Shown in pieces: positions 8,926 to 24,866 of a DNA stretch of 44,908 bases. Positions within the stretch are counted from its first letter, which is position 1. Every line of letters begins with the position of its first letter. The notes beneath the pieces were generated by a model. That model searched no databases and was not told the DNA's origin. It saw only the letters and a program-made list of their open reading frames with translations. Position numbers and translations under genes: made by a program. Source of the stretch: Oceaniovalibus sp. ACAM 378 (lineage in GTDB: Bacteria > Pseudomonadota > Alphaproteobacteria > Rhodobacterales > Rhodobacteraceae); the NCBI RefSeq assembly GCF_008085915.1, contig NZ_VSJK01000024.1:1-44908 (forward strand), given 5' to 3'.

Positions 8926-9172
8926 GAAAATACCTCAACAACATCGTGGAGCAGGACCACCGCTTCATCAAGAAGCTGACCCGGCCGATGCAGGGTTTCA
9001 AATCCTTCGCTGCTGCGCAGGCGACCCTCGCCGGGATCGAGACCGCACATATGATCCGAAAGGGTCAGCTTGCCGGCAACGGTGGCACCGCCTTTCAGCA
9101 GTTCGCGGCGCTGGCAGGATAACTGTGTCCAGCAAAACGCTTGCGTTTAGCCTGCGGATATATTTGCGACAC
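8926..9172 (+). mobile_element. IS6-family fragment A (3' end of transposase plus right terminal repeat)
   Basis: From 8928 the plus strand encodes KYLNNIVEQDHRFIKKLTRP and continues to QQFAALAG and a stop at 9122; this is the last 64 residues of an IS6 transposase with the catalytic Glu. The terminal repeat TTTGCGACAC ends at 9172. The 5' two thirds of the element are missing. It replaces the C-terminus of the HPP gene. Confidence 0.8.
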
Positions 9173-9571
9173 ATCCCAAGAAATCAAGGGTTTGCCCCTC
9201 ACGGTCAACAGCTCGGTAGAGATACGTCCAACTGCCTTTAACCTTGATGTAGGTTTCATCCATTCGCCAGGACACAGCTGTTGGTCGCTTTGTGGACTGC
9301 GCATTTGCAGCGATCTGCGGGGAATATCTGATGACCCAACGGTTCAAAGAAGAATGATCAACGCTGACGCCACGATCGGACATGATCTCTTCCAGATCAC
9401 GGTACGAGACGCCGTAACGGACATAGAAATAGACCGCATACAGAATGACGGATTTCGGGTATTGCGCGCCCTTGAAGTCAATTATCGTTCCGTTCCGATC
9501 GTGCGTGTCCGGTCTCGCACATCCAGTTCTGCATACGCCGCCGGGGCGACAGTGCGAAAAGCTTGCGACAC
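9173..9571 (-). mobile_element. IS6-family fragment B (5' end of transposase)
   Basis: On the minus strand the frame gives GTIIDFKGAQYPKSVILYAV and proceeds through WRMDETYIKVKG to DREGQTLDF, where it abuts the terminal repeat of fragment A. The catalytic core after the first Asp is lost. Its own left terminal repeat (GTGTCGCAAGC on the minus strand) begins at 9571. A and B therefore meet in opposite orientation. Confidence 0.8.
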
Positions 9572-9878: not shown

Positions 9879-10388
9879 CTAGCGATGAATATGTACCGCA
9901 TCTGCGATGTAACGCTGTAAACTGTGCGACCAGCTTGCTGGAAACCAGACCGCAAAACTGTCCGCAGCGGTCCGGTGAATCAACGCGTGGATCCCGTGAA
10001 TTCCGGTTTGTCGAAAAGCGCCAATCATAAAACCGGACGAGCTGAAATCAATCGGAGCAAGACTCGACATCGCGTTTTCCGAGCTGGCGCCCGAAATCTC
10101 CAGCCGTGCACGGGCATGGCTCAGATCGCAAAACGCACCGTCCTCGAGATTGACCCGGCTTTCCAGCGACATGATCGCAGTCGAGTCTGCATGGTGAAAC
10201 TGAACCCGATCCGGCGCGATGCGAAACAGAATGAATCCATCGATGCTGACGGCAAGGTCATAGCCGGGCAAGGGCAGTGTCTTGTCAAAGATGAGCGATA
10301 ACTGCCTTTGCAGATCGCCCCAGACGACCATCTGGGCGACCCCACCAGCCGCGGATTTCTTCAATGTGACTCCGTAATCCTCAGGCAT
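9879..10388 (-). CDS. soxG: Sarcosine oxidase gamma subunit
   Basis: A 169-residue small subunit of heterotetrameric sarcosine oxidase. The family is weakly conserved; support comes from position (last gene of soxBDAG, overlapping soxA by 8 bases) and from a GcvT-like pattern such as FCDLSHARARLEISG and the late FWFPASW-type stretch (FAVWFPASWSHSLQRYI). The subunit helps assemble the alpha-beta core. Downstream lies IS6 debris, so the operon ends here. Confidence 0.8.
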   Translation of the reverse strand: MPEDYGVTLKKSAAGGVAQMVVWGDLQRQLSLIFDKTLPLPGYDLAVSIDGFILFRIAPDRVQFHHADSTAIMSLESRVNLEDGAFCDLSHARARLEISGASSENAMSSLAPIDFSSSGFMIGAFRQTGIHGIHALIHRTAADSFAVWFPASWSHSLQRYIADAVHIHR

Positions 10389-13344
10389 TCTGGCGCTCTC
10401 CTTCGGGGTCGAAAAATTGCGGAGACACGACGCGCGCCATTACGGTGCTTTCGCCCAGGAAATCAATGGCGCGGACCGTGCTGCCGATCCGTTCGGGGGC
10501 ACCGCCGAGATAGCCAAGAGCGATAAACCGCTCCAGCGCGGGCGACCATGTTGTCGAGGTAACCCAGCCAAGGCCGTTTCCTTCGGTCTTACCGTCGGCG
10601 GCGAACAGGATCGCACCGGCTTTCGCGCCGATGGGGCCATCGATCTCCAATCCGACCAGCATGGGGCGATCCGGGTCTTGCAGGTCGGGCCGCTGGGCAA
10701 GCACCGAGCCGACGAATGGTTTGCGTGACGATGCCATGCGCCCCATCCCCATATCGCGCAGGGTTGCGCGACCGTCCAGTTCGGGTCCCGCGACATGGCC
10801 TTTTTCAATGCGCAGGGTGCCCATCGCCTCGGTGCCATATGGGGCGATGTCATGTGGGGCGCCTGCCGTTATCAGTGCCGCCCAAACATCTTCAGCGTCT
10901 TCGGAGCGAACGTATATTTCATACGCCAACTCGCCGGAAAAGCTCATTCTGTGAACCCGCACGGCAACCCCTTCAACCTGTGCGTCGGTCAATGAGTTGG
11001 GCGACAGCGCAGCGGCAAAATCGCCGGAAACCGCGCGCAGAACATCGCGTGAGGCAGGGCCGGCCAGCGCCATAGCCGCCCATTGATCGCTGACCGAAGT
11101 AACGCGCACCCGCAGGTCATACAACGACGTCGCCAGCAGGTGTTCGATATGCGACATTACGCGGCCCGCACCGCTGGTGGTTGTCGACATCAGATAATCG
11201 TATTCGCTCAGCCGGGCAGTTGCTCCGTCATCCAGCACGATTCCATCCTCGCGCAGCATGACGCCATAGCGCAACTTTCCGGGCTTCAGGGTGCTCCAGC
11301 CATTGACGTATAGCAGGTTCAGCAAATTTGCGGCGTCAGGTCCCTGCACCATAATCTTGCCCAGCGTCGACACATCGACTAGGCCGACGGCACGACGCAC
11401 ATGGGCGGCCTCGCGCCGGTAGGCCTGGTCAAGTGTTTCGTCGCCTATTGGATAGTACCAAGGGCGCAGCCAAGGCCCGGCCTGTGTCATGACCGCACCA
11501 TTCCTCAGGTGCCAATCTTGCAGTGGCGTCAGGCGGGTCGCGTGGAAATGTTCACCGGAATCATGCCCGACAAGCGCACCGATCGTTACCGGCGTAACCG
11601 GGGGACGAAACGTGGTGGTGCCAGTTTCGGGCAGAGATTTCTCCGAAAGCTGGGCCATACGCGCCAGTGCATTGACGTTCGACAGCTTGCCTTGATCGGT
11701 GGCCATCCCGGTCGTGGTATAGCGTTTGAGATGTTCGACCGAGACATATCCCTCGTCATGGGCCTGATCCAGATCGCGCACTGTGACGTCGTGCTGCATA
11801 TCAACAAAGGCCTTGCCGAACGGTTTGTCCTGCGCATTCATCACACACCAGAGCGGATGCAGGTCACGCGCCCAGTGCGGGGCCGTGTCGGCAAGGTGGG
11901 CCGTCTGTGAGGTGGATGCGCCCCCGGCCAGTGCGCCTTGAATGATGGCGTCCGAAAGGCCCGGCGCCGCGATGACACTGCCTGCAAAGCACATGTCCGG
12001 CAAAAGATCGGGCACAGGCAGAAAACAACCATTTTCGGTGTCATAAACCGGTTTCATCTGGCGTTGGCTCCACAATTGCAGAGCCGGCGCCCAGCCGCCG
12101 GAAACAGCGATCAGATCGAACCTGAGTCTGACGGTTACACCGGTTGCGCGGCCGTTCCGATCAACGGGAACCACAGAGGCTGCGGTGATATGCCTGTGCC
12201 CATGCGCGGAGGCGATGCCGTGTCCGGAAAGGCAGACACCGCCAGCTGAAGTCAGTTCGTTGGCAAGAGGTTGCGGCACACTGGCGCGCGCATCGCAAAG
12301 CGTGACTTGGGCACCAGCCCGTACCAGATCAAGCGCCGTGGCATAGGCGCTGTCGTTATTGGTGGCGATCAGCACGTTCTGTCCTGCCAACACCCCGTAT
12401 CGGTTGAGATATGTTCGCACTGCCGAGGCAAGCATGACACCGGGCCGGTCGTTATTGCCAAAGACGAGTGGACGTTCAAAGGCGCCGGTGGCCAGCACGG
12501 TACGCTTGGCGCGGATTTTCAAATAGCATTGCCGTGCCTCATCGGAGGGGGGCTGCGCGACATGGTCCCACTGACGCTGCACCGCGCCAAAAACATTGCC
12601 GTCATAGGCGCCGAAAACGGTTGTCCGGGCAAGAATGGTGACGTTTGGCAAAGAGTGCAATTCGTCCGCAGTTGTGCTCAGCCAAGCATCGGTCGCCGCA
12701 TCCGGTGGGGCTGACAACAACGCACCACCAAGGGCAAAATCTTGCTCGGCAAGTATGACACGCAGGCCTTGCCGCCCGGCTGTCAGTGCCGCGCTCAGCC
12801 CTGCTGGACCCGCGCCAATGACCAGAACGTCGCAAAAGGCGTTGGTCTTGTCATAGCTGTCAGGATCAGAAAGCGTGATAGCGCGTCCCATGCCGGCGGC
12901 TTTGCGGATGTATCGTTCGCAGAACATCCAAAAGGCCGTTCCGCGAAACGGACCGATGAATGTCTTGTAATAAAAGCCCGCACCGATGAATGGTGACAAT
13001 GCTCCGTTGATCGCGCTGAGGTCATGCCGGACATTGGGCCAGCCGTTTTGGCCCCGCGCGACGAGGCCGTCGAACGCCTCGAGAGTTGTGGCGCGCGTGT
13101 TCGGCTCAGACCGGGCACCTTCACCGAGGGTGATCAATGCGTTCGGCTCTTCGGTTCCCGCAGAAAAAACCCCGCGTGGACGGTGATACTTGAAGCTGCG
13201 CGCGATGATCATTTCCCCGGCGGCTAGCAGTGCCGAGGCAAGTGTGTCGCCCGGATGCGCCGCGATCCTGCGCCCGTCAAACTGCATTGAAATCATGCGG
13301 CTGCGATCGATTCGCCCGCCCTTTGCAAGGCGACGCGCCGTCAT
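10381..13344 (-). CDS. soxA: Sarcosine oxidase alpha subunit
   Basis: 987 residues from the ATG at 13344, which overlaps the soxD stop by 4 bases; the frame is open to 13470 but that part lies within soxD. Domains in order: an N-terminal 2Fe-2S-ferredoxin-like segment lacking iron ligands (RISMQFDGRR-type, residues ~20-100), a nucleotide-binding domain with DVLVIGAGPAGLSAALTAG for NAD, and a C-terminal GcvT/aminomethyltransferase-like half beginning near REAAHVRRAVGLVDVSTLGK that binds tetrahydrofolate. The enzyme demethylates sarcosine to glycine, passing the methyl carbon to tetrahydrofolate as 5,10-methylene-THF and producing hydrogen peroxide. Cytoplasmic. Confidence 0.95.
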   Translation of the reverse strand: MTARRLAKGGRIDRSRMISMQFDGRRIAAHPGDTLASALLAAGEMIIARSFKYHRPRGVFSAGTEEPNALITLGEGARSEPNTRATTLEAFDGLVARGQNGWPNVRHDLSAINGALSPFIGAGFYYKTFIGPFRGTAFWMFCERYIRKAAGMGRAITLSDPDSYDKTNAFCDVLVIGAGPAGLSAALTAGRQGLRVILAEQDFALGGALLSAPPDAATDAWLSTTADELHSLPNVTILARTTVFGAYDGNVFGAVQRQWDHVAQPPSDEARQCYLKIRAKRTVLATGAFERPLVFGNNDRPGVMLASAVRTYLNRYGVLAGQNVLIATNNDSAYATALDLVRAGAQVTLCDARASVPQPLANELTSAGGVCLSGHGIASAHGHRHITAASVVPVDRNGRATGVTVRLRFDLIAVSGGWAPALQLWSQRQMKPVYDTENGCFLPVPDLLPDMCFAGSVIAAPGLSDAIIQGALAGGASTSQTAHLADTAPHWARDLHPLWCVMNAQDKPFGKAFVDMQHDVTVRDLDQAHDEGYVSVEHLKRYTTTGMATDQGKLSNVNALARMAQLSEKSLPETGTTTFRPPVTPVTIGALVGHDSGEHFHATRLTPLQDWHLRNGAVMTQAGPWLRPWYYPIGDETLDQAYRREAAHVRRAVGLVDVSTLGKIMVQGPDAANLLNLLYVNGWSTLKPGKLRYGVMLREDGIVLDDGATARLSEYDYLMSTTTSGAGRVMSHIEHLLATSLYDLRVRVTSVSDQWAAMALAGPASRDVLRAVSGDFAAALSPNSLTDAQVEGVAVRVHRMSFSGELAYEIYVRSEDAEDVWAALITAGAPHDIAPYGTEAMGTLRIEKGHVAGPELDGRATLRDMGMGRMASSRKPFVGSVLAQRPDLQDPDRPMLVGLEIDGPIGAKAGAILFAADGKTEGNGLGWVTSTTWSPALERFIALGYLGGAPERIGSTVRAIDFLGESTVMARVVSPQFFDPEGERQNA

Positions 13345-13634
13345 GATGACGCCGCCATAGTTGCTTCGCCTGCGAAAACCGAGCGGGCCAACTGGCAACT
13401 GTCGATCTGGTGAGTGGCCGTGTTGCGATTGACTATCAACCATTCCCGGCAGCCCATTACATGCTGCCAATATTCACAGTGCGCACCGCGCGGGTTGTCA
13501 CGCAGGAACACAAAATCTGCCCAGGTGCCCGGATCGGTAATCGACGGGTCCGGTCGGCGCACCGTCGCGTCGCCCAGATAGGCAAACTCTGTCTCGTCGC
13601 GGTGCCCGCAAACGGGGCAATCCAGCCGTATCAT
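13341..13634 (-). CDS. soxD: Sarcosine oxidase delta subunit
   Basis: A 97-residue zinc-binding subunit from the ATG at 13634. Ligands are visible: C6 and C9 in LDCPVCG, then H58 and C62 in EYWQHVMGC. The start is chosen because the upstream open frame lies over soxB. It is spaced 10 bases after soxB and overlaps soxA, consistent with a tightly coupled operon. Confidence 0.92.
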   Translation of the reverse strand: MIRLDCPVCGHRDETEFAYLGDATVRRPDPSITDPGTWADFVFLRDNPRGAHCEYWQHVMGCREWLIVNRNTATHQIDSCQLARSVFAGEATMAASS

Positions 13635-13644
13635 CCGGCGATCC

Positions 13645-14925
13645 TCACTGCATGTTCGGCTGCGGCCCGGCAGCCTTCTCGTCGATCTGGGTGCCGCGCT
13701 CGAACCGGGATAAGGTAAAGCGGGCGTTGTCGTCGTGCGGGGTGTCTGTTGCGATGGTGTGGGCGAAACACCAGCCACTGGCCGGGGTCGCCTTGAACCC
13801 GCCGTAACACCAGCCCCCGTTCAGATAGAGACCCTCGATCGGGGTTTTTGCGATGATCGGGCTTCCGTCCATGGTCATGTCCATGACGCCCGCCCAATGG
13901 CGCAGCAGGCGCAGACGTGACAGGGACGGAATCAGGGCCATCGCACTTGCCAGCGTGTGTTCAACCTCGGGAAGGCCACCGCGTTGGGCATAGCTGTTAT
14001 ACCCGTCCAGATCGCCACCCAGCACCAATCCGCCCTTGTCGGACTGGCTGATATAAAAATGCGCCGCCCCAGAAGATATGACGTGATCGATGAACGGCTT
14101 GATCGGTTCGGTGACAAACGCCTGGAGCGCGTGGGTTTCGATCGGCAGCCGCAACCCCGCCTTGGCTGCAAGCAGACTGGTATGCCCGGCAACGGCCAGT
14201 CCGACCTTGCCGGCCCGGATCGGGCCGCGCGTGGTCTCGACGCCGCAGATCCGTTCGCCGTCGCGCAGATAACCGGTCACTTCGCATTGCTGGATGATAT
14301 CGACGCCCAACCTGTCTGCGGCGCGGGCATATCCCCAGGCCACGGCATCATGGCGGGCGGTGCCGGCGCGGCCCTGAAACATCGCGCCATAGATCGGGTA
14401 TCGCGCCTTTTCCGAATAATCGAGATAGGGCAAACGGCGCATCACCTCGGCGCGGTCCATCAGTTCAGAGTCGATGTCATGGGCGCGCATGACGTTGCCG
14501 CGCCGCCGCAAGCCGTCCATCTGCGCCGGGGAATGACCTAGGTGAAACTGTCCGCGCTGCGACATCATCACGTTGAAGTTCAATTCCTGGCTCAGATTTT
14601 CCCACATCCGCATCGAGCGTTCGTAGAACATCGTGTTGCCGGGAATCATGTAATTGGATCGCACGATGGTGGTGTTGCGCCCGGTATTGCCGCCCCCCAG
14701 CCAGCCTTTCTCGATCACTGCGATGTTACGCAGCGAGTGTTCCTTGGCGAGGTAAAACGCGGTGGCCAGGCCATGACCGCCGCCACCAACGATCACGACA
14801 TCATAGGCAGGTTTCGGTGCAGGATCGCGCCAGGCGCGCGTCCAGCCTCGGTTGCCTGAAAGGCCATTCCGAACGATCGACCATGCGGAATAATGTGTCA
14901 CACCAATGAGCCTCTGCTGTTTCAT
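13645..14925 (-). CDS. soxB: Sarcosine oxidase beta subunit
   Basis: A 426-residue flavoprotein. The Rossmann FAD motif YDVVIVGGGGHGLATAFYLA lies at residues ~41-60, followed by the DAO-fold signature through GGGNTGRNTTIVRSNY. The C-terminal part includes GLYLNGGWCYGGFKATPASG, typical of the family. This subunit carries the catalytic flavins that oxidise sarcosine. It is the first gene of soxBDAG, divergent from an RpiR-type regulator. The start codon lies inside a short inverted repeat and no strong Shine-Dalgarno is seen. Confidence 0.95.
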   Translation of the reverse strand: MKQQRLIGVTHYSAWSIVRNGLSGNRGWTRAWRDPAPKPAYDVVIVGGGGHGLATAFYLAKEHSLRNIAVIEKGWLGGGNTGRNTTIVRSNYMIPGNTMFYERSMRMWENLSQELNFNVMMSQRGQFHLGHSPAQMDGLRRRGNVMRAHDIDSELMDRAEVMRRLPYLDYSEKARYPIYGAMFQGRAGTARHDAVAWGYARAADRLGVDIIQQCEVTGYLRDGERICGVETTRGPIRAGKVGLAVAGHTSLLAAKAGLRLPIETHALQAFVTEPIKPFIDHVISSGAAHFYISQSDKGGLVLGGDLDGYNSYAQRGGLPEVEHTLASAMALIPSLSRLRLLRHWAGVMDMTMDGSPIIAKTPIEGLYLNGGWCYGGFKATPASGWCFAHTIATDTPHDDNARFTLSRFERGTQIDEKAAGPQPNMQ

Positions 14926-14947
14926 ACGCTATATGAAGCATACGCTA
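14921..14947. promoter_or_regulatory. Repeats overlapping the soxB start codon
   Basis: TTCATA (14921-14926) and TATGAA (14932-14937) form a 6-bp inverted repeat around a 5-base spacer and include the soxB ATG. CATACGCTA also occurs twice, at 14923-14931 and 14939-14947, 16 bases apart. Binding here would block soxB initiation. I have no direct evidence for which protein binds. Confidence 0.35.
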
Positions 14948-15040
14948 CGCCATTTCAAAGGAAAATATCAATCGCTATTAATGTTGTGCGCCCTACTTTC
15001 GACCGGATGTCGGGATGTTGGACAGCATGAGGGGAAACAA

Positions 15041-15063
15041 GTAACGAATGGTACATCCGTTAC
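15041..15063. promoter_or_regulatory. Candidate RpiR operator
   Basis: A 23-base imperfect palindrome with outer arms GTAACG and CGTTAC and a matching inner ATG/CAT. It ends 11 bases before the regulator's ATG and lies in the intergenic region shared with soxB. The location fits autoregulation and joint control of soxBDAG. Confidence 0.5.
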
Positions 15064-15074
15064 TGCGAGGTATC

Positions 15075-15929
15075 ATGTCACACAGCATTCTCGATCGGCT
15101 GACTGCCGAGCTTGCCGAACTTCCGACAAAACTGAAGGTGGCAGCAAAATACGCTCTGGATAACCCGGACAGGATTGCCTTTGGATCAATGCGTGGGGTT
15201 GCAGTCGAATGTGGTGTGTCGTCGCCAACCATGCTGAGGCTGGCACGACATCTGGAGTTCGACAGTTACGAAGATTTCAAAGCCTGCTTTCAGAATGAAA
15301 TCGCTGGCAACAGTTTTTCGTCAAGGGCAGGGGCTTTGATGGGCAGCGGGACGGGCGTGGGAAGCCCGCTGATCGACCGTCTGAAGGTGGCGGCGTTGGA
15401 CAACGTGACAAGCGCGATGACCCAGAACGCCCCCGAGACATTCAAGGAAATGGCTACGATTCTGCGCACCGCCGAGACGACGCATCTTGTTGCTGCCGGT
15501 TCGATGTACTGGATTGCAGCACATATGGAAAACACCGGCGGAATCGCGTTCCGGGGATTGCGCACTGCTCGGCCTGGCACTGCGACGGTGCTGGAAACGC
15601 TCAGTCTGATCGGACCAAAGGATGCGGTGTTGATCATTGCCGTTTCGCCCTACGCAAAGGTGGCGGTGAACGCGCTGACCTATGCCAACGAGGCGGGCGC
15701 GCAGACGATGGCGATTACCGACAGGCGCAGTTCTCCGTTTGCCACGCTGGTCAACCACTGTTTGTTCGCCCCGACGGCGAGCCCGCATTATTATCCGTCC
15801 GTTGTCGGGATCGCTGCGGTGGCCGAGGCGCTTTTGGCTTGCGCCGTGGCGGGGAGTCAGGGCGCCGCGATCAAGCGGATCGAGACAGTCGAAAAGTTGC
15901 GCCTTCAAAGCGGAGCCTATTTCGAATGA
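15075..15929 (+). CDS. MurR/RpiR-family transcriptional regulator
   Basis: A 284-residue regulator from the ATG at 15075, with GCGAGG upstream; the longer frame from 15048 crosses the palindromic operator. The N-terminal HTH (residues ~1-77) includes AAKYALDNPDRIAFGSMRGV and ECGVSSPTMLRLARHLEFDS. The C-terminal SIS domain starts near residue 115 with THLVAAGSMYWIAAHMENTG and GPKDAVLIIAVSPYAKVAVN, a phosphosugar-binding fold that in this subgroup may sense other ligands. It stands between soxBDAG and the peptide-type ABC operon, so it probably controls both. Confidence 0.9.
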   Translation: MSHSILDRLTAELAELPTKLKVAAKYALDNPDRIAFGSMRGVAVECGVSSPTMLRLARHLEFDSYEDFKACFQNEIAGNSFSSRAGALMGSGTGVGSPLIDRLKVAALDNVTSAMTQNAPETFKEMATILRTAETTHLVAAGSMYWIAAHMENTGGIAFRGLRTARPGTATVLETLSLIGPKDAVLIIAVSPYAKVAVNALTYANEAGAQTMAITDRRSSPFATLVNHCLFAPTASPHYYPSVVGIAAVAEALLACAVAGSQGAAIKRIETVEKLRLQSGAYFE

Positions 15930-16180
15930 CGCCAGACGGATTTCACGCCGATTTATCGGTCGGCAACCTCGAAGGTCTTGGTTAATGTTATATTACAATT
16001 GACACGGTTGTAGATAAGAATGTAGCGTTTGGTTCAGGGGTGGGGCAATACCTGCGTAGCCGTTGTTCGGCCATGCGCAAGTCAAGATCCATAACCGGCC
16101 TTATCAATTGGCAAGGGCCCCAGAGATCGTGACGGAACTCTGAACTATCCGCACGAAACCCGAACAGCGAGGTGAACACC
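15930..16180 (+). promoter_or_regulatory. Intergenic region before the peptide ABC operon
   Basis: No gene is seen. An AT-rich patch holds TGTTATATTACA (near-palindrome, about 15987-15998) directly followed by TTGACA at 15999-16004, a consensus -35 box. I could not settle the -10. The ribosome site GCGAGGTG precedes the GTG at 16181. Confidence 0.4.
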
Positions 16181-17776
16181 GTGTTACGTCTTCTGTCACT
16201 TATTACTGCATTCGCGTTGACAAGCGTCGTGGTGCCAGGGGGGACAGCCAGCGCCGCGCCTTCCCAAGGGGGCACATTCATCATCGGGCTGGAAGGAGAG
16301 CCAGCCACAGCAACTGGTCATTTGGCGACCGATACGGTCGCGCTCATGGTCGCGTCGAACATTTTCAACGGTCTGGTATCACTGGATTTCAATTTCAACC
16401 CGCAACCCGATCTGGCGACAAGCTGGGATATTTCCGATGACGGACGGACCTATACCTTCCATCTGGCCGAAGATGCCAAATGGCATGACGGGGTGCCGGT
16501 TACCGCCGAGGATATCGAATATACCTTCAACGATATCATCGCCGTTGCGCACCCCCGCGCCGGGTCATGGTGGCCAAACGTTGAAAGCGCCGTCGCAACG
16601 GACAAGCACACCTTTGTGATCACACTAAAGGCGGCCTATGCGCCCTTCATGACGATCATCGGCAATACGCTGGGTTCTGGCACTCTGATGATGCCCAAGC
16701 ATATCTATGAAGGCACGGACCCCAAGACAAACCCCGCCAACTTCGCGCCGATCGGGAGCGGGCCATTCAAGTTCGTCGCATGGAACCGCGGCAGCCACAT
16801 CGAACTGGAGAGGAACCCTGATTATTTCAAGGAAGGGTTACCATATCTTGACCGGATCATCTTGCAGTTCCTGCCCGATGCCGCGTCCCGACTGCTTGCG
16901 TTCGAGCAAGGCGAAGTGGACTTCCTCCATATGTATATCGTGCCATTCGATCAGGTGGCGCGCTTCAGAAAAGACGACAAATTCCGGGTGATCGAACGGG
17001 GCGGCGAAGGGGCTGCAACCAACGAGTTTCTGCTGATGAACATGCGCAGTGGCCCGCTTGCCAACAAGGATGTCCGTCATGCACTGGCTTGGGCCATTGA
17101 TCGCGAGCAAATCGTCGAGAAAGCAGTGTTCGGCGAGGGCAAGGTCGCTCACAGTTTCATCAACAGCGGCCTTTCATGGGTCTCTGACGGGAGCACCGAT
17201 GTCTATCGGTCGGTCGATCTGGACAAGGCCAACGAACTGCTCGACAACGCTGGCTTTCCGCGCGATGCTGATGGCAAACGATTTGATCTGCGCATCGCTC
17301 TTGCGTCGGGGCGGGATTACGAAGGCCGTGCCGATGAGATCATCAAGGATAATCTGGCTCAGGTGGGGATTGGTGTCACTGTCGAAATGTCCGACCGCAC
17401 TTCTTTCATCGAGAAGGTGATGCGCCAGTGGGATTTTGATCTGGCGAATCAACTTTTCACCACCGGCCCGGATCCCGCGATCAGCGTTCGCCCGCGGTAT
17501 CATTCCGAACAGATCAAGAAGATCCCGTTCGTCAATTCGATGGGCTATTCCAACCCCGAGTTGGACAATATCTTTGACACGGAGTCCGGTGAGATTGATC
17601 GCGAAAAGCGGGCCGGAATGTGGAGAGATGCGCAGACAATCCTGTTCGAAGACATGCCTGCCCTGCCGCTTTTCGAGATACCGGTGGTCAATCTGGTCTC
17701 CGACCGGTTCAAAGACGTGATCACGACACCCTTTGGCTATATCCAGAGCCGCGAAGGCACCTACTTCGAAGAGTGA
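16181..17776 (+). CDS. Peptide/opine-type ABC transporter substrate-binding protein (SBP family 5)
   Basis: About 531 residues. I prefer the GTG at 16181 because GAGGTG is well spaced upstream; a GTG at 16172 overlaps that site. A signal peptide (LLSLITAFALTSVVV, cleavage near ASA-AP) is followed by the family-5 pattern: PDLATSWDISDDGRTYTFHL, then DAKWHDGVPVTAEDIEYTFN, and a C-terminal FEDMPALPLFEIP. Family 5 proteins bind di/oligopeptides, nickel, opines and glycine-betaine-like compounds. The genomic link to sarcosine oxidase suggests a ligand that releases sarcosine. A hairpin follows the stop. Confidence 0.92.
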   Translation: MLRLLSLITAFALTSVVVPGGTASAAPSQGGTFIIGLEGEPATATGHLATDTVALMVASNIFNGLVSLDFNFNPQPDLATSWDISDDGRTYTFHLAEDAKWHDGVPVTAEDIEYTFNDIIAVAHPRAGSWWPNVESAVATDKHTFVITLKAAYAPFMTIIGNTLGSGTLMMPKHIYEGTDPKTNPANFAPIGSGPFKFVAWNRGSHIELERNPDYFKEGLPYLDRIILQFLPDAASRLLAFEQGEVDFLHMYIVPFDQVARFRKDDKFRVIERGGEGAATNEFLLMNMRSGPLANKDVRHALAWAIDREQIVEKAVFGEGKVAHSFINSGLSWVSDGSTDVYRSVDLDKANELLDNAGFPRDADGKRFDLRIALASGRDYEGRADEIIKDNLAQVGIGVTVEMSDRTSFIEKVMRQWDFDLANQLFTTGPDPAISVRPRYHSEQIKKIPFVNSMGYSNPELDNIFDTESGEIDREKRAGMWRDAQTILFEDMPALPLFEIPVVNLVSDRFKDVITTPFGYIQSREGTYFEE

Positions 17777-17782
17777 TACCTG

Positions 17783-17808
17783 GCGGTCCGGCGTCGTTGC
17801 CGGACCGC
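17783..17808 (+). promoter_or_regulatory. Hairpin between binding-protein gene and first permease
   Basis: Perfect 10-bp stem GCGGTCCGGC (17783-17792) with GCCGGACCGC (17799-17808) and loop GTCGTT. It starts 7 bases after the stop codon, without a T-run. Same layout as at 2257-2282 and 29430-29464. Confidence 0.75.
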
Positions 17809-17848
17809 AATTCATTTGCCCTTGCCTCGAATATCGGGAACCGAACAA

Positions 17849-18829
17849 ATGACGGGAACGCGTCTGCTCCTCTACGCTTTGCGCCGCCTGCTTCAGGCTG
17901 TCCCGATGATCGTCATTATCCTCATCGTCAATTTCTTCCTCATACACTCCGCGCCCGGAGATCCGGTGGATGTGTTGACCGGTTCGATGGAGACGAGCGA
18001 AGAATACATTGCCGAGCTGCGCGCCGAATTCGGGCTGGATAAGCCATTGGTTCAACAGCTCGGAATCTATCTCTGGAAGGCGGCGCATTTCGATCTGGGG
18101 TATTCAATGCGCTATCGTCAGGATGTGACCGGGCTGATCCTCAGCCGATTGCCGGCGACCTTGCTGTTGATGGGCACAGCGCTCGTCTTTTCCAGCTTTC
18201 TTGGAATCATGCTGGGTGTGTTCGCCGCGCGGCGGCCCTATTCCCTAAGCGACAATGCCGTGACTTTTATCGCGCTTGCCGGGTACTCCATGCCGGTGTT
18301 CTGGCTCGGGCAAATCCTGCTGCTGATCTTTGCGGTTCAACTGCAATGGTTTCCGGTGCAGGGGATGTTCTCGCTTCGGGTGCCCAGCCACGGATGGGCT
18401 CGGTTTGCCGATCTGATGCATCACCTGGCGCTTCCGGCAATTACATACTCGGTTTATCACCTGACGCTGATCTATCGCCTGACACGCGTAAAGATGCAGG
18501 AGACACTGACACTGGACTTCTGCACCACAGCCCGCGCAAAGGGGCTGAGCGAAGCAAGTGTCGTTCGCCGTCACGCGCTGCCCAACGCAATGCTGCCGGT
18601 GGTGACGGTGATCGGCCTCAACTTTGGGTTCATGCTGGCCGGATCGGTCTTGACCGAGACGGTGTTCGCATGGCCGGGCACCGGGCGGCTGCTGTACGAG
18701 GCGATCAATGCCCGCGACTATCCGGTGCTGCTGGGTCTTTTCACATTCCTGTCGCTGATGGTGATCCTGGCCAATGTGCTGACGGATATCATTTATGCGC
18801 TGATTGACCCACGGGTGACTTACTCATGA
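17849..18829 (+). CDS. Dipeptide-type ABC transporter permease (DppB-like)
   Basis: A 326-residue permease from the ATG at 17849 (the frame is open to a TTG at 17816). The N-terminal helix with MIVIILIVNFFLIHSAPGDP and the conserved APGDP motif identify DppB/OppB proteins. A later EAA-like loop reads TTARAKGLSEASVVRRHALP. It overlaps the next permease by 4 bases. Confidence 0.92.
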   Translation: MTGTRLLLYALRRLLQAVPMIVIILIVNFFLIHSAPGDPVDVLTGSMETSEEYIAELRAEFGLDKPLVQQLGIYLWKAAHFDLGYSMRYRQDVTGLILSRLPATLLLMGTALVFSSFLGIMLGVFAARRPYSLSDNAVTFIALAGYSMPVFWLGQILLLIFAVQLQWFPVQGMFSLRVPSHGWARFADLMHHLALPAITYSVYHLTLIYRLTRVKMQETLTLDFCTTARAKGLSEASVVRRHALPNAMLPVVTVIGLNFGFMLAGSVLTETVFAWPGTGRLLYEAINARDYPVLLGLFTFLSLMVILANVLTDIIYALIDPRVTYS

Positions 18830-19698
18830 GCGTTGTCGAACCACTTGCCGCGACTGAAGTTGCCGAAATGCCAAGCGCATGGCGCATTTTCCGGCGCAAC
18901 CGCATGTCGGTGTTCGGGCTTGTTCTGATTGTGATTCTGGCGGTTCTGGCGCTGCTGGGGCCATGGATTGCACCGTTTTCGCCCTATTCCACTACGGCGG
19001 GGCCGGTCATGGCGCCGCCGGGTGCGCCTCATTGGCTGGGCACTGACGAATTGGGCCGCGACATTTTCAGTCGGGTTCTGTTGGGCACGCGAACATCGTT
19101 GTTGGTGGGACTTGCCGCCGCGTTCATCGCCACATTTGTCGGCATCACGGTGGGTGCGCTTTCGGGATATTTCACTGGCTGGATCGATGACGTAATAATG
19201 CGCGTCACCGAAGTGTTTCAGGTCATTCCACGGTTCTTTCTCGCGATCGTACTGGTGTCGTTCTTTGGGGCGAACCTGGTGAACATCATCCTTGCCATAT
19301 CGCTTTTGTCCTGGCCCGAACTGGCCCGGATCGTGCGCGCCGAATTTCTGACCCTGCGCAGCAGGCAGTTTGTCGATGCAGCGCGGGTGTGCGGGGCAGG
19401 TGCGATGTGGCTGGTGTTTGTAGAAATTCTGCCAAATGCGCTGGCGCCGGTGATTGTGAACGCCACGCTGCAGGTGGGGCAGGCGATGCTGCTTGAGGCG
19501 GGCCTCAGCTATCTGGGCGTCGGCGATCCCAGCCAGATATCGCTGGGCATGATGTTGCAGCAGGCGCAGCAGATTATGCGCGCCGCTTGGTGGGCAACCC
19601 TGTTTCCGGGTGTTGCGCTTGCCATCGCGGTTCTTGCTATCAACATTGTCGGGGATGGTCTGAACGATGTGTTCAGCCCCCGCTCGCGGGAGCGATGA
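18826..19698 (+). CDS. Dipeptide-type ABC transporter permease (DppC-like)
   Basis: A 290-residue partner of the DppB-like protein. Near the N-terminus FRRNRMSVFGLVLIVILAVL is the first helix of DppC-type permeases; HWLGTDELGRDIFSRVLLGT is the diagnostic periplasmic motif. The EAA loop is VDAARVCGAGAMWLVFVEIL. ATGA overlap with the preceding gene signals translational coupling. Confidence 0.93.
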   Translation: MSVVEPLAATEVAEMPSAWRIFRRNRMSVFGLVLIVILAVLALLGPWIAPFSPYSTTAGPVMAPPGAPHWLGTDELGRDIFSRVLLGTRTSLLVGLAAAFIATFVGITVGALSGYFTGWIDDVIMRVTEVFQVIPRFFLAIVLVSFFGANLVNIILAISLLSWPELARIVRAEFLTLRSRQFVDAARVCGAGAMWLVFVEILPNALAPVIVNATLQVGQAMLLEAGLSYLGVGDPSQISLGMMLQQAQQIMRAAWWATLFPGVALAIAVLAINIVGDGLNDVFSPRSRER

Positions 19699-19699
19699 A

Positions 19700-20689
19700 A
19701 TGACAGACCATGCTACAGCACCATTGCTGTGCGTTCGCGGGCTGACCACAACCCTGCGTACGGATACGTCAGAGTTTGACGCGGTGAGCGATGTATCAAT
19801 CACCATTGGCCGGGGCGAGGCGGTCGCGCTGGTCGGTGAATCCGGATGCGGCAAGAGCCTGACCGCACTATCGCTGATGCGATTGCTGCCGTCCGTCGCA
19901 CGGCTTTCACCGCCGACATCCGTGACGTTCGACGGCGTTGATCTTGCAACACAGGACGATGCCGAGATGCGCAAGGCGCGCGGTCGCAAGATGGCGATGA
20001 TCTTTCAGGATCCGCTGACGTTCCTTAATCCGGTGATGCGTATCGGCGATCAAGTGACCGAGGCAATCCGGGTTCACAATGTCCTGACCAAGGCAGAGGC
20101 GAGCCAACTGGCGCTGGAATCGTTGGAGCGCGTGCGCATCACTGCCCCGGCGCAGGTGATGCGTTACTATCCGCACCAACTGTCCGGAGGAATGCGCCAA
20201 CGGATACTGATCGCCATGGCCATCAGTTGCAAACCCGAACTGTTGATTGCGGACGAACCGACAACAGCGCTGGACGTCACGATTCAAGCCCAGATCATGG
20301 ATCTTCTGGCGGATCTGCGGCGCGAACTGGGCAGTTCGATGCTGTTGATCACCCATGACATGGGTCTGGTCGCGGAATATGTCGACAGGGTGTATGTAAT
20401 GTACGCCGGCGAGATCGTCGAAGAGGCCAGCGTCTTTGATCTTTTTGCGGCGCCAAAGCACCCCTATACGCAGGCGCTGCTGAAATCGTCGCTATCGGTT
20501 GATCGCCGCACCGAGGTGTTCGAGACGATTGCTGGGGTGCCGCCCAACCTGGCCAATGCGCCCAAGGGGTGTCGTTTTCACCCGCGCTGCCCCGTCGCTA
20601 TCGAGCGTTGCGCGCGAGAACATCCCGGCTTTACCGATATGGGAAATGCGCAGCGCGCCCGTTGTCTGCTGCTGGAGGAGGGGGCATGA
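19700..20689 (+). CDS. Dipeptide-type ABC transporter ATPase (DppD-like)
   Basis: A 329-residue ATPase from the ATG at 19700, directly after the DppC-like gene. Walker A GESGCGKS is at residues 46-53, followed by Q-loop [12 protein letters not shown], signature LSGGMRQR, Walker [14 protein letters not shown] and the OppD-type C-terminus [18 protein letters not shown] with clustered cysteines (a possible iron-sulfur or metal site of the family). It forms a heterodimer with the next ATPase. Confidence 0.93.
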
Positions 20690-21684
20690 GCGAACTATTG
20701 CGGGTTGAAGGCTTGAAGGTTCACTTTCCAGTCAATTCCGGCGCGTTCCGCAGATCTCCCGGGTCGGTCAAGGCTGTCGACAATATCAGTTTTGCCATTC
20801 CCAATGGCAAGGTCGTGGCGTTGGTCGGTGAATCCGGTTGTGGCAAGACCACCGTGGCCCGCACCATTCTTGGTCTGAACCACATCAGCGACGGGCGCAT
20901 CACCCTGAACGGCAAGGATGTGACCGAACACGGAAAAGGGCGAACGCCCGAGTTCCGAAGCAGGGTTCAGATGGTGTTTCAGGACCCTTACGAGTCGCTG
21001 AACCCGCGTCGCACGGTGCTGCAATCGCTTGCGGTGCCGTTGCGGGCGAACGCGGTTGTGCCCAAGACCGAGTATCAGGCCGAATGCATTCGCCTGCTGG
21101 ATATGGTGGGGTTAAGTCCTGGTGCGGCGTTCCTTAACCGTTATCCGCACCAGTTTTCGGGCGGCCAACGGCAACGTATCGGCATCGCCCGCGCCATCGC
21201 CGTGCGCCCCGATCTGATCGTCGCGGACGAGGCGGTATCGGCGCTGGATATTTCGATCCGGGCTCAGGTGCTGACGCTGATGCGCCGGTTGCAGCAAGAT
21301 CTTGGGCTGGCCTATCTGTTTATCTCCCATGATCTGGGTGTGGTACGCTCTTTGGCCGATCATGTGCTGGTCATGTATCTGGGCCGGGTCGTCGAAGAGG
21401 CATCGACCCAGGATCTTTTCGAGCGCCCAACGCACCCTTATACACAGTCGCTTCTGGCGGCCAGCCCGATCCCGGATCCGGTGGCCGCCCGGGCGCGTAA
21501 GCGTATTCCGCTGACAGGCGAGGTTCCATCGCCGATCAATCCGCCGAAAGGGTGCCATTTTCATCCGCGCTGTCCGCTGGCCATTGACCGCTGCCGCAAC
21601 GAAACACCGGCGCTGCGCCTTGTCGGCGCCTTTAAGACGGCCTGTCACCGGGCCGAAGAAATGCCGGAACTGACGGCGACCTGA
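20686..21684 (+). CDS. Dipeptide-type ABC transporter ATPase (DppF-like)
   Basis: A 332-residue ATPase beginning at the ATG at 20686 after GGAGGAGG and overlapping the previous stop by 4 bases. Walker A GESGCGKT, Q-loop MVFQDPYESLNP, signature FSGGQRQR, Walker B LIVADEAVSALD, and the C-terminal PPKGCHFHPRCPLAIDRC. The first residues (LRVEGLKVHFPVNSGAFRRS) are typical of DppF/OppF. Confidence 0.93.
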   Translation: MSELLRVEGLKVHFPVNSGAFRRSPGSVKAVDNISFAIPNGKVVALVGESGCGKTTVARTILGLNHISDGRITLNGKDVTEHGKGRTPEFRSRVQMVFQDPYESLNPRRTVLQSLAVPLRANAVVPKTEYQAECIRLLDMVGLSPGAAFLNRYPHQFSGGQRQRIGIARAIAVRPDLIVADEAVSALDISIRAQVLTLMRRLQQDLGLAYLFISHDLGVVRSLADHVLVMYLGRVVEEASTQDLFERPTHPYTQSLLAASPIPDPVAARARKRIPLTGEVPSPINPPKGCHFHPRCPLAIDRCRNETPALRLVGAFKTACHRAEEMPELTAT

Positions 21685-21717
21685 CCTTGCAAGATCATAC
21701 CCAATATGGAGATTCAG

Positions 21718-22734
21718 ATGTCACCAGCCCCCATAACCGCCAGCGCCGAGGCAATTGCATTTACCAAGAACACGATGGTGTTCGACTGCCTGTCGCTGTT
21801 CTATGTTCTTGACGACAAATACGCGCAGCAGTGCATCGAGGGCGGGGTCAACGCCTGCAACGTGACCTTTGGTTCGGAAAACGATTGGGGCGCGATGGTC
21901 GCCAATATCGAAACCGGGCTGGAAAAGGTCGAGAAAAGCGAGTTTCTGCACCTTGTCACCTGCGCCGCCGATATCGAAAAGGCCAAATCCGAGGGCAAGC
22001 TGGGCGTCATTCTCGGCACCCAAGGATCATCCATGATCGAGGACCGGCTTGAACGGATCACGCTGATGCACCGCCTTGGCATGCGCTATTTCGGGCTGGC
22101 CTATACCGGCCCGACGCTGCTTGCCGATGGTTGCGGTGAACATCGCGATGCCGGGCTGACGTTTCTTGGTAAAGAGGCGATCGAGGTCATCAACGGTTTG
22201 CCGCTGATCCTTGACCTCTCGCACAGCGGCCACAGTGCCCGCGCAGAGGCGACCGAATTGGCGCGTGTGCCGGTCTGCACCCATTCCAACGCCTATACCC
22301 TGAACGCCAACGACCGCAACACCAAGGATGAGACAGCTAAGGCAATCGCAACTAAGGGCGGTGTCGTCGGTCTGTGTGGTCTGCCCAAATCGGTTCACCC
22401 CACGGCGCCGACGCTTGAACATATGCTGAACCACTGCGATCATTACCGCGACGTGATCGGCACCGATCATATCGGTATCGGGCTGGACTTCACCACCGGC
22501 TACAAGGCCAGCGGAGAGATATTGCCGATGTCGCGGCGCTGGCGCACCTATCGCCCCGACATTTTCGGAACGGTCGATGAATTCATGACCCAGACCTATC
22601 CCGACGGCCTGACTCGGATCGAGCAGCTTCCCAATCTTACTCAGGGACTGATCGACCGTGGTTATAGCGAAGATCAGGTCGCCGCCATTCTGGGCGGAAA
22701 CTGGTTCAATCATTTCAAGCGTTTCGTCGGGTGA
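21718..22734 (+). CDS. M19 (renal dipeptidase-like) metallohydrolase-fold protein
   Basis: A 338-residue protein. ATG 21718 is preferred because GGAG sits 6 bases before it; ATG 21706 is also in frame. The TIM-barrel family is evident from LPLILDLSHSGHS, VPVCTHSNAY and DHIGIGLDFTTG, with two metal-binding His. The usual first-strand His-x-Asp ligand pair of dipeptidases (DGHND) is replaced by VFDCLSLF, so the metal site is incomplete or altered. A similar non-classical M19 protein lies beside dimethylglycine demethylase genes in Pseudomonas. Position after a peptide ABC transporter and near soxBDAG suggests it cleaves or processes the imported sarcosine precursor. Confidence 0.85.
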   Translation: MSPAPITASAEAIAFTKNTMVFDCLSLFYVLDDKYAQQCIEGGVNACNVTFGSENDWGAMVANIETGLEKVEKSEFLHLVTCAADIEKAKSEGKLGVILGTQGSSMIEDRLERITLMHRLGMRYFGLAYTGPTLLADGCGEHRDAGLTFLGKEAIEVINGLPLILDLSHSGHSARAEATELARVPVCTHSNAYTLNANDRNTKDETAKAIATKGGVVGLCGLPKSVHPTAPTLEHMLNHCDHYRDVIGTDHIGIGLDFTTGYKASGEILPMSRRWRTYRPDIFGTVDEFMTQTYPDGLTRIEQLPNLTQGLIDRGYSEDQVAAILGGNWFNHFKRFVG

Positions 22735-22764
22735 GCCGCCGATCGTGTTACGAAAGTTACTCTG

Positions 22765-23553
22765 ATGGCTGACATTTTTCCCGTTGTTCTTGGTATCTGC
22801 CTTGATGCCGAAGCAATCTGGCTCAGCAAGAGCCCTGCCAACAGGGACCGTCCGGTTCTGCTGTCCACCGGCAGTTACGCGATCCGCGAAGGGCTGAATC
22901 CTCTGCTTGATCTATTGGATGCCAATGATGCAAAGGCGTCCTTCTTTGTACCGGGCATCACCGCTGACCGCTACCCGGGCGCGGTCAAGCTGTTGCATGA
23001 CCGCGGCCACGAACTGTGCAGCCACACCTATAATCACCTGCCGGTCATGGGCCTGACGCCCGCGCAGGAACGCGACGAACTGGTGCGCGGAATTGAAGCT
23101 GTCGAACGTCACAGCGGCGTTCGCCCGACAAGCTGGCGTTCGGCGTCTTGGGAGTGGTCGGCGCACACGCTGGATTACCTGGTCGATGAGGGTGTCGAGG
23201 TATCCTGCAATTTTCAGGATAGCCTGCGCCCTTACCGCCATCTGAAGAACGGTGCGCCAACGCCAGTGATTGAACTGCCGGTTCACTGGCATCTCGCGGA
23301 CGCGCCGTATTTCCTTTATGGTGGCGATATACAGCGCCGGGTGCGCCCGGTGACAGAAGTTGAGACGATCTGGATGGATGAATTCGACGCAACCTATGAT
23401 TGGCCCGGCACCTATTTTCAATTGACGCTGCATGTTCAATTGATGGCACATCCCAGTCGCCTTAAGATGCTGGACCGCATTCTGAAACACATGAAATCGC
23501 GGAGCAGAGTCCGCATCATGACCTGCTGCGAAGTATCGAAAGCGGTTAGCTGA
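22765..23553 (+). CDS. Polysaccharide-deacetylase-fold hydrolase (HpPgdA/PuuE-like)
   Basis: A 262-residue NodB-homology protein without signal peptide, so cytoplasmic. The metal-binding Asp is D14 in GICLDAEAIWL, and His ligands are H87 and H91 in HELCSHTYNHLP. WRSASWEWSAHTLDYLVDEG supplies the third conserved motif. The subgroup with LDAE instead of FDDG includes Helicobacter PgdA and the allantoinase PuuE, which open cyclic amides or remove acyl groups from small molecules. It is the last gene of the transporter operon, so a small amide substrate in the sarcosine route is more likely than cell-wall chitin chemistry. Activity not certain. Confidence 0.82.
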   Translation: MADIFPVVLGICLDAEAIWLSKSPANRDRPVLLSTGSYAIREGLNPLLDLLDANDAKASFFVPGITADRYPGAVKLLHDRGHELCSHTYNHLPVMGLTPAQERDELVRGIEAVERHSGVRPTSWRSASWEWSAHTLDYLVDEGVEVSCNFQDSLRPYRHLKNGAPTPVIELPVHWHLADAPYFLYGGDIQRRVRPVTEVETIWMDEFDATYDWPGTYFQLTLHVQLMAHPSRLKMLDRILKHMKSRSRVRIMTCCEVSKAVS

Positions 23554-23690: not shown

Positions 23691-24866
23691 TCATGTTGCC
23701 ATTTCAGCGGTGTAGTCGGCCCAGAGGTTGAAAGCATCTGAGTGGGCGTGGCGGTATGAGGCTGCTGCGAGTTGATAGCGGCGGGGGCGAAGGATCAGGT
23801 TGATTTGGTCATTTGAAGACAGAAACTTCTGAGGATGCTGGTGGGATTTGTACTTGCCGAAGATCTTCTCTCGTTTTCGGGTCGGCCGGTGCGTTTCTTC
23901 GATCGCGTTGTTCAGACCCTTGTGGGCCCGGTGATCCGCTGACGAGGCTAACGTCTTGATTGGCTTGATGTAGCTGCGCAACTTGTCCGTGATTACAACG
24001 CGCGGCTCGCCGAACCTTGCGGCCAATCTTTGGAAGAACCGTTTGCTGCTTTTGCATTCCGGCGCGTTTGCACGAGAATACCCACGCACATCTCCGTCAG
24101 CGTCGATTGCGCGCCACAGCCAATGTTTCAGCCCACGGATGGCAATCACGACTTCGTCCAGGTGCCACTTGTCGTTCGGTCTTGGTCGGTCACGCCGGAT
24201 GCAATCCGCGAAGTGCCACCCGAAGCGGTTAACCCAAAGACGGATCGCTTCCCGGCTGACAAGCACACCCCGCTCCGCCAGTAGGCCTTCAACGTCGGCC
24301 GTGCTCAGGGCGAAGCGATGATACGCCCAAACAGCATAAGCAATGATCTCACGTGGATATGGAAAGCCCTTCAGGCGCGGCATATCGGTGAGAATTCTCA
24401 TGGGCTCCGGGGTCTGGCGGAAGATGATGTCGCGCTCGGGACCGTTCAGCGCCCGCCACTGCCGCACCCGCCGCTCCAGCGTGCGCCGAATACGATCGTC
24501 GGGGAAGGCCAGTGGATGCTCGCTCTGAAGGTGGCGCAACAGGGTGACGGCCTGCAACGCGCTGTCCTTCTTTAGCAGGGGAAGAAGGTCGGTCTCCCAA
24601 TAGACTTCAAGGGGATCGGCCACCGTGCGCCCGCGGGCGATCTTGCGCTTTGAGGGCGGTGTCGGGTCGGCATCGAAGCGCCGGGCGGTCCGTTCGCTGA
24701 ACCCGGCACGGGCAGCCGCTGTGCGCTGACTGTGATTTTGGAGGTCGGTCATATATAATCTCAATTGCTGGTCGGTGATGGGTTTGTAGGCCAACCCGGA
24801 TCCTCCGTTTGACGGCAGAAGAACCCGGCTTACCAACCCGCAGCGAGCACCCAACCCAGAAATCAA
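23691..24866 (-). CDS. Chimeric ORF: IstA N-terminus fused to IS6 transposase
   Basis: 391 residues in one open frame. Residues ~27-150 (YKPITDQQLRLYMTDLQNHS through RQWRALNGPERDIIFRQTPE) are the helix-turn-helix and start of an IS21 IstA transposase. From about residue 155 the protein is an IS6 transposase (MPRLKGFPYPREIIAYAVWA, Asp in KWHLDEVVIAIRG, Asp in VVITDKLRSY, Glu in NNAIEETHR), complete to the end. The fusion is in frame at PEP-MRILTD. The IS6 catalytic triad is intact, so it may still act on related IS6 ends; its own start could be an internal ATG. Confidence 0.8.
   Translation of the reverse strand: MISGLGARCGLVSRVLLPSNGGSGLAYKPITDQQLRLYMTDLQNHSQRTAAARAGFSERTARRFDADPTPPSKRKIARGRTVADPLEVYWETDLLPLLKKDSALQAVTLLRHLQSEHPLAFPDDRIRRTLERRVRQWRALNGPERDIIFRQTPEPMRILTDMPRLKGFPYPREIIAYAVWAYHRFALSTADVEGLLAERGVLVSREAIRLWVNRFGWHFADCIRRDRPRPNDKWHLDEVVIAIRGLKHWLWRAIDADGDVRGYSRANAPECKSSKRFFQRLAARFGEPRVVITDKLRSYIKPIKTLASSADHRAHKGLNNAIEETHRPTRKREKIFGKYKSHQHPQKFLSSNDQINLILRPRRYQLAAASYRHAHSDAFNLWADYTAEMAT

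Follow-up and report, generated by a model that had tools for sequence, protein, structure and literature searches.

Genes for heterotetrameric sarcosine oxidase are found on an acquired betaine-catabolism island of Colwellia psychrerythraea, and, as far as the accessible portion of its description goes (PMC3691474), the subunit set (soxBDAG), the domains and the gene order are the same as in the locus studied here. Described proteins sharing the CE4 fold with the hydrolase of this locus are HpPgdA (HP0310), the allantoinase PuuE and HxnM. According to the available parts of the respective papers, HP0310 lacks a signal peptide, is closest to PuuE and was inactive on the compounds tested, including allantoin (PMC3084791), and HxnM, a cyclic imidase from a fungus, resembles HpPgdA in structure and shares 64.2% identity with a P. 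putida homologue of cyclic imide hydrolase (PMC9304392). The best solved relative of the M19-like protein of the locus is the PDB entry 2i5g, an 'amidohydrolase' of the M19 family (E 7e-35). We take this entry to be PA5396 of Pseudomonas, presumably encoded near betaine genes; no described function of PA5396 or 2i5g was found in the open-licence literature. Among open-licence publications joining sarcosine oxidase with RpiR, MmgE, a dipeptidase or a polysaccharide deacetylase, the accessible text of none describes the gene set considered below; such an absence carries little weight, and it agrees with the initial annotation, which knew of no pathway with exactly this set.

The window, i.e. the whole stretch of DNA that was analysed, comprises 44,908 nt of contig NZ_VSJK01000024.1, and the block under study occupies positions 9879-23553. 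The sox genes are located on the minus strand. The soxB gene (beta subunit, 13645-14925) has the solved relatives 1vrq and 2gag; its homologues start about 8 codons downstream of the start of the window ORF. The soxA ORF (alpha subunit, 10381-13470) contains the Pfam domains Fer2_4, SO_alpha_A3, GCV_T and GCV_T_C, and its true start is probably near 13390. SoxB and SoxA score 677.8 and 1178.9 bits against the NCBIfam soxB and soxA cut-offs of 529.45 and 1164, respectively, these sox models being defined at the subfamily level, where a score does not fix the substrate. The matched part of soxD (delta subunit, 13392-13625, 78 aa tested) is above the Pfam cut-off for PF04267 and below the NCBIfam one (107.8 vs 116.5). 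The soxG-like gene (gamma subunit, 9879-10388) gave no Pfam or NCBIfam match at the chosen thresholds and was assigned by its position and by 29-36% identity to the soxG-like genes of relatives.

The gene of an RpiR-type regulator (15048-15929, plus strand; HTH_6 and SIS domains, both above the cut-off) is divergent from soxB. Downstream of it on the plus strand are the genes of a family-5 solute-binding protein, or SBP (16172-17776; SBP_bac_5, PF00496, E 4e-92), a DppB-type permease (17816-18829) and a DppC-type permease (18826-19698), both assigned by Pfam, and DppD/OppD-type and DppF/OppF-type ATPases (19667-20689 and 20569-21684), both assigned by family profiles and both with oligo_HPY. 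Together they form a complete peptide/nickel-type ABC importer of family 5; among the matches listed for it, all NCBIfam specificity models stayed below their cut-offs. The last two genes on this strand encode an M19-like protein with an altered metal site (Peptidase_M19, 21706-22734) and a CE4-family HpPgdA/PuuE-like hydrolase (Polysacc_deac_1, 22765-23553). The gene content given in the initial annotation, namely soxBDAG, a divergent RpiR gene, a full transporter, an M19 protein and a deacetylase, is confirmed by the ORFs and their family matches. In comparison with the Colwellia island, the sox genes of the window are accompanied by an RpiR gene, a family-5 importer and two hydrolase genes, whereas genes for betaine or dimethylglycine demethylation were absent from the annotated window ORFs. 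The scan for promoters and terminators gave no excess over shuffled sequences (2 vs 4.6 and 7 vs 8.0, respectively).

The name of the sox genes does not settle the substrate. Related heterotetramers act on other N-methyl amino acids, an example being N-methylglutamate dehydrogenase. Two further soxD loci are present in the same genome (contigs C21 and C109), and the window SoxB is 60% and 49.5% identical to the respective SoxB copies, which marks it as an additional and divergent copy. In an alignment of 21 SoxB sequences the Arg and Lys expected at the substrate carboxylate are conserved (VRSNY, IRSNY or IRANY, and GFK or RFK), at positions that we assume by analogy with monomeric sarcosine oxidase. 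Only four positions of this alignment have a residue that is invariant in the window clade and found in no other row, and the comparison did not separate substrates. The idea of a sarcosine source rests on the sox name; SoxBDAG may be a sarcosine oxidase in the strict sense, as far as its sequence tells, and sarcosine is a possible, not an established, product of the block; the sarcosine-containing peptides, creatinine and N-methylhydantoin suggested in the initial annotation are likewise candidate substrates.

The M19-like protein is a family member by its Pfam score (PF01244, 256.5 bits vs a cut-off of 26) that lacks the N-terminal HxD (VFDCLSL is found there) and has Gln instead of the bridging Glu (GTQG), the metal-ligand positions being those we presume from renal dipeptidase. 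Both losses are common to all 14 rows of the clade alignment, which covers 13 loci, one of them (L040) giving two rows; neither this alignment nor the tree includes L042. The later metal and substrate residues are kept. The distant relative 2i5g has the same Gln at the Glu position. Given the loss of HxD and of the bridging Glu, ordinary dipeptidase chemistry is doubtful, and the description of the protein as a 'non-classical' M19 member was borne out. The window protein has no well-supported neighbour in the M19 tree. Tandem M19 copies were observed in L040 (3340-5462) and L035 (3114-4327, the second copy being cut by the contig end).

The CE4 protein contains a NodB-type domain (PF01522, 70 bits), and its best solved relatives are 3rxz, HP0310 (3qbu) and PuuE, as expected from its earlier designation as PgdA/PuuE-like. 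The similarity to PuuE is distant (E 4e-16), and the NCBIfam PuuE model was not reached (50.5, cut-off 424.6). Asp14, His87 and His91 are conserved in 10 of 10 aligned rows and line up with what we take to be the metal residues of the CE4 group, one Asp and two His. It had also been proposed that a deacetylase-fold enzyme can open small rings; this accords with the likening of HxnM to HpPgdA in the available part of PMC9304392. An ABC importer adjoins the CE4 relative in seven of the eight plasmid loci looked at (the exception being Thermomicrobium), and an SDR oxidoreductase is beside it in six of these seven. In three loci (L052, L053 and L054) the same operon is repeated: a MarR regulator, an ABC importer, a CE4 relative, two SDR genes and an amidase. 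Neither the CE4 nor the M19 protein has a clear signal peptide by eye, a crude hydropathy score (2.2 and 2.0 for the hydrolases vs 2.4 for the SBP) providing poor separation. The best reading of these sequence features is that the CE4 protein may act in an imidase- or amidase-like manner on a small substrate inside the cell.

SoxB was found at E<=1e-150 in 118 of the 149 genomes of the family, the source genome included; at an identity of at least 77% it was found, besides the source genome, only in G089, G108 and G125. Close SoxBs were also found on plasmids of Parasedimentitalea (77%) and Thalassospira (80%), and in the tree of 20 sequences the window SoxB groups with these five (98/99). Next to soxB, and divergent from it, an RpiR gene (42-48% identity) is found in G089, G108, G125 and Parasedimentitalea. 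The contig of G108 ends within soxA; in the other three, soxG is followed by an MmgE/PrpD gene and then by transporter genes. The transporter has a family-3 binding protein in G089 (Pfam) and is of the amino-acid type in Parasedimentitalea (by annotation) and in G125 (by homology of the permease and the ATPase). These three units share with the window the divergent RpiR gene, soxB (77-81%) and a common operator motif; they carry MmgE/PrpD and a small amino-acid-type ABC transporter, where the window carries genes for a family-5 transporter, M19 and CE4. The Thalassospira sox locus gave no RpiR match. It has an aspartate ammonia-lyase gene before the sox genes, purU after them, and a LysR gene and an amino acid ABC transporter nearby; the lyase is above the aspartase subfamily cut-off and below the equivalog one. 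In G026 a distant RpiR gene (39%) adjoins a gene with DAO and GCV_T domains, an aspartase-like gene being a few kb away.

A palindromic 16-base operator matrix was built from eight sites in the RpiR-soxB gaps of G089, G108, G125 and Parasedimentitalea. Thalassospira, with no RpiR gene adjoining soxB, was excluded, and G026 was scanned with the matrix only. The matrix contains no window sites, but its seed was picked after viewing all gaps, that of the window included. The six best window sites start, in order, at 14918, 252, 14964, 16021, 14934 and 15040, and the score drops from 11.5 at the sixth site to 9.4 at the seventh. Four of the six are at the RpiR-soxB gap, where operators are predicted at 14918-14933, 14934-14949 and 14964-14979 (no strand assigned here or below). 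Another predicted operator (16021-16036, 13.9 bits, rank 4 in the window) is located between rpiR and the SBP gene. The second-best operator-like site, 252-267, is close to the start of the contig. With a first-order random background, 0.0017 sites as good as 16021 are expected in the rpiR-SBP gap and 0.34 per window. Column-permuted matrices, a stricter control, reached rank 4 or better in the SBP gap in 4.4% of cases, in the sox gap in 3.2% and in both in 0.2%. The SBP-gap site stays at rank 3 to 6 when each relative is dropped in turn; comparably strong sites (11-13 bits) are found elsewhere in the relatives' loci too. The motif is present again in the RpiR-sox gap of the window and, with less certainty, ahead of the transporter operon, and RpiR would likely co-regulate the sox genes and this operon.

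The transporter, M19, CE4 and sox genes recur together in a distant genome, G206, an alphaproteobacterium of another family. Its locus (L059) has them on one strand in the order SBP, permeases, ATPases, MmgE/PrpD, M19, a second MmgE/PrpD, CE4, soxB, soxD, soxA and a SoxG-family gene. The proteins are identical to those of the window by 62.5% (SBP), 70% and 69% (permeases), 61% and 57% (ATPases), 60% (M19), 56% (CE4), 64% (SoxB), 51% (SoxD) and 46% (SoxA). A LysR gene lies beyond the module. In G502 (locus L040, contig C235) a LysR gene is ahead of an SBP gene (26%), which is followed on the same strand by two M19 genes, soxB (65%), soxD and a soxA gene that the contig end cuts off after its first part. 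No RpiR match was found in the 20 kb of L059, and neither L059 nor L040 contains an operator-like site comparable in strength to those of the window. The 4.3-kb contig L035 contains both ATPase genes (66%; 57-60%), a PrpD gene, an M19 gene and part of a second one. Lists of neighbours may be incomplete, given that the codon-score gene caller misses genes: a PrpD gene (L059:11393-12748) and the soxG gene (L059:2682-3386) were missed by it and found otherwise, and one of its runs gave nothing for L060. The loci of G206 and G502 indicate that chance proximity does not account for the grouping.

A related transporter (permease 50%) is found in G378 on L105 (1-15329, minus strand) beside the genes of an ASL-type lyase and an MTTB-family protein; a DAO+GCV_T demethylase and MmgE/PrpD, M24, MR_MLE and Ldh_2 genes are also there. 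A family-5 binding protein was not found on L105, and the M19 orthologue of G378 is on another contig. The gene run of L105 looks like one for catabolism of a methylated amine.

Close copies of the hydrolases and of the first permease are rare. At E<=1e-20 the M19 orthologue was found in one of the six genomes of the genus, the source genome itself. At E<=1e-60 it was present in 6 of 385 genomes of the class, including the source genome, G206 and G378. The source genome was the only one of 398 genomes of the phylum to have it, and G502 the only one of seven in its own family. M19 relatives at E<=1e-20 occur in 88 of the 149 genomes of the window's family; among the matches listed, none besides the source genome's own exceeds 35% identity. 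The CE4 protein at E<=1e-60 was found in 2 of 357 class genomes (the source genome and G206), and the first permease at E<=1e-100, in 3 of 357 (these two and G378).

In total, 14 distinct loci with M19 orthologues were retained: the window, L033-L043, L059 and L060. The archaeal L044 (33%) and other relatives below 48% identity were excluded, and duplicates were merged (G378 = L043, G441 = L037, G502 = L040, L045 within L059, L049 within L060). Several of the contigs are short, making absences weak. SoxB of at least 64% identity is encoded in three of the 14 loci, the window included, and a distant DAO oxidase (about 26% to SoxB) adjoins M19 in two more (L041 and L060). Under the assumption of three sox clusters per 5 Mb, the Poisson probability of at least two close SoxBs in the remaining 13 loci, 231,210 bases in all, is 0.009. 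Parts of a family-5 transporter are found in eight loci (the window, L033, L034, L035, L040, L042, L043 and L059), L040 and L043 having the SBP alone; MmgE/PrpD adjoins M19 in six (L035, L036, L037, L038, L041 and L059), and a close CE4 gene is present in two. Other M19 loci carry XDH-like, AtuA, ALAD-like, penicillin amidase, aldehyde dehydrogenase or phosphodiesterase genes; since the orthologues occur in these other catabolic settings, the M19 clade is not tied to sox alone. In L036, L037 and L038 the M19 gene is directly after MmgE/PrpD and an ALAD-like gene is nearby, and penicillin amidase and XDH-like genes are present in two of these three.

We consider it rather probable that the block is one module for import, hydrolysis and N-demethylation under RpiR control, assembled from two older units in an IS-bounded region. 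The order of reactions, the targets of the M19 and CE4 proteins and the substrate class are what we infer as follows. The family-5 transporter would import a compound containing an N-methyl amino acid. Inside the cell two enzymes would hydrolyse the compound, the M19-like one and the one with the CE4 fold (probably an imidase or amidase for small rings), and a secondary N-methyl amino acid would be released; SoxBDAG would then oxidise the N-methyl group and hand the one-carbon unit to tetrahydrofolate. The initial annotation had also read the genes as a single module of this kind, and the set of G206, M19 together with sox in G502 and the putative operator before the transporter support it, as do the DAO+GCV_T demethylase adjoining the transporter genes of G378, the presence of the M19 orthologue in both other genomes with a close permease (G206 and G378), and the divergent RpiR genes of the four relatives, whose operator matrix finds sites in both window gaps. 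Against it, RpiR-soxBDAG stands with other partners in near relatives; the M19 orthologue is missing from the five other genus members and, above 35% identity among the matches listed, from the 148 other genomes of the family; L059 has neither an RpiR match nor a strong operator; the SoxBs of the three modules are not from one clade; close sox genes are found in only 3 of the 14 M19 loci; and the operator before the transporter is equalled or surpassed in rank by 4.4% of the column-permuted matrices, the seed having been picked in view of the window gaps. As to the conservation of the neighbourhood, which the initial annotation proposed to check, the set is kept in one distant genome, G206, and not in the near ones, an outcome that does not clearly refute the annotation. 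The kinds of unit are known and newly combined: a sox demethylation unit and a rare import-and-hydrolysis unit.

Since MmgE/PrpD or aspartase-like lyase genes stand beside the nearest relatives of the sox genes, an N-methylated amino dicarboxylate is a live rival to sarcosine. Iminodisuccinate (IDS) epimerase is an MmgE/PrpD protein (its structure paper is cited in PMC12290011), and for this reason MmgE/PrpD and aspartase/ASL-type lyases as recurring partners point to amino dicarboxylates. The module would then act on a substrate of the N-methylaspartate type and not on a source of sarcosine, the SoxBDAG branch would be specialised for the dicarboxylate, and MmgE/PrpD epimerases and aspartase- or ASL-type lyases would complete the route in other genomes. 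The position of MmgE/PrpD after soxG in the three units of the window SoxB clade and beside M19 in six loci is consistent with this, as are the lyase gene before the Thalassospira sox genes, the joint presence of transporter, demethylase, ASL-type lyase and PrpD on L105, the IDS epimerase structures (2hp0, 2hp3) among the best solved relatives of two PrpD proteins, and the two other sox copies of the source genome. However, the window block has neither a PrpD nor a lyase gene, the PrpD genes of the genome being on C22 and C77; the PrpD proteins are diverse, and in both structure comparisons IDS epimerase scored lower than B. subtilis IRG1. Moreover, the Thalassospira lyase is under the aspartase equivalog cut-off, and the SoxB residues fail to separate substrates. 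We regard this explanation as unlikely, though deserving attention.

A wider version of the dicarboxylate idea, which we hold to be improbable, is an undescribed bacterial route, assembled several times from exchangeable blocks, for an amino dicarboxylate that carries an N-methyl group and is linked as an imide or amide. After import by the family-5 system, the cytosolic CE4 imidase and the metal-depleted M19 enzyme would open the ring or amide, and MmgE/PrpD, in genomes that have it, would act as epimerase. The dedicated SoxBDAG branch or a DAO+GCV_T enzyme would carry out the folate-linked N-demethylation, and an aspartase- or ASL-type lyase, again only where encoded, would release fumarate. 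Nothing relevant on sarcosine oxidase together with aspartate ammonia-lyase or N-methylaspartate was found in the accessible open-licence texts, nor any open-licence publication on a bacterial N-methylaspartate demethylase; both absences are weak. The homarine/N-methylglutamate route was considered and set aside, as the accessible open-licence texts gave no matching gene set, this absence being weak as well.

The block is flanked by insertion sequences. On the left there is an IS240-type transposase gene (6445-7188, plus strand; IS240-type DDE domain), with two fragments related to it at 8928-9488. On the right, a transposase gene of the same Pfam family is found at 23691-24866 (minus strand). 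Two older units appear to have been joined between these elements, and acquisition or rearrangement through insertion sequences fits these data without being proven. With IS sequences on both sides, RpiR-soxBDAG occurring without M19 and CE4 in four relatives and M19 found in other contexts, a stand-alone RpiR-soxBDAG operon and an unrelated transporter-hydrolase operon could have been brought alongside by IS elements. We think this improbable, as G206 and G502 join M19 with sox (G206 also with the transporter and CE4), and an operator is predicted before the window transporter. Moreover, the SoxBs of L059 and L040 fall outside the window SoxB clade and the three modules thus have SoxBs from more than one branch, so that sox was recruited to M19-type modules on more than one occasion or was exchanged in some of them; in other words, the link between M19 and sox arose repeatedly or survived replacement.

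Use of creatinine or N-methylhydantoin, in which CE4 would open the ring, M19 remove the carbamoyl group and Sox demethylate sarcosine, appears quite improbable to us. It is favoured by the action of PuuE on a small ring and of HxnM on a cyclic imide, as given in the available parts of PMC3084791 and PMC9304392, and by a Hydantoinase_B gene next to a DAO oxidase gene and M19 in L041. Nevertheless, the accessible part of PMC3084791 has HP0310 inactive on allantoin, and no known pathway family was found among the annotated window ORFs or the annotated genes of L059; creatininase, hydantoinase and carbamoylsarcosine amidase were all absent from the annotated window ORFs (those outside 2933-3652, 26638-29408 and 32378-42867). 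Cell-wall peptide recycling by the transporter, a peptidase and a peptidoglycan deacetylase, with sox as a bystander, is suggested by the family names alone and is very improbable given the altered M19 metal site, the ABC importers adjoining the CE4 relatives and, as judged by eye and with a crude hydropathy score that separates them poorly from the SBP, the lack of a clear signal peptide in both hydrolases.

The import, hydrolysis and N-demethylation module bears on annotation, since the label sarcosine oxidase is easily given to soxBDAG copies. That one branch has a regulator, an operator motif and partner enzymes of its own suggests that some copies serve other N-methyl compounds, in which case the genome-based prediction of methylated-amine use would change. 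The module also provides a testable setting for the M19 clade with the altered metal site and for CE4 'polysaccharide deacetylases' in small-molecule import operons.

Several other features of the window were observed. A pfkB-family ORF of 186 aa (24898-25458) directly after the right transposase looks truncated, its best stretch covering only profile positions 172-296 of 302 (the C-terminal part). The region 1373-6180 contains family-3 ABC transporter genes together with a YjgF-family gene and a SelA-like PLP-enzyme gene. A DDE_Tnp_1-type transposase gene (31197-32174) is located to the right of a sugar-type ABC transporter cluster.
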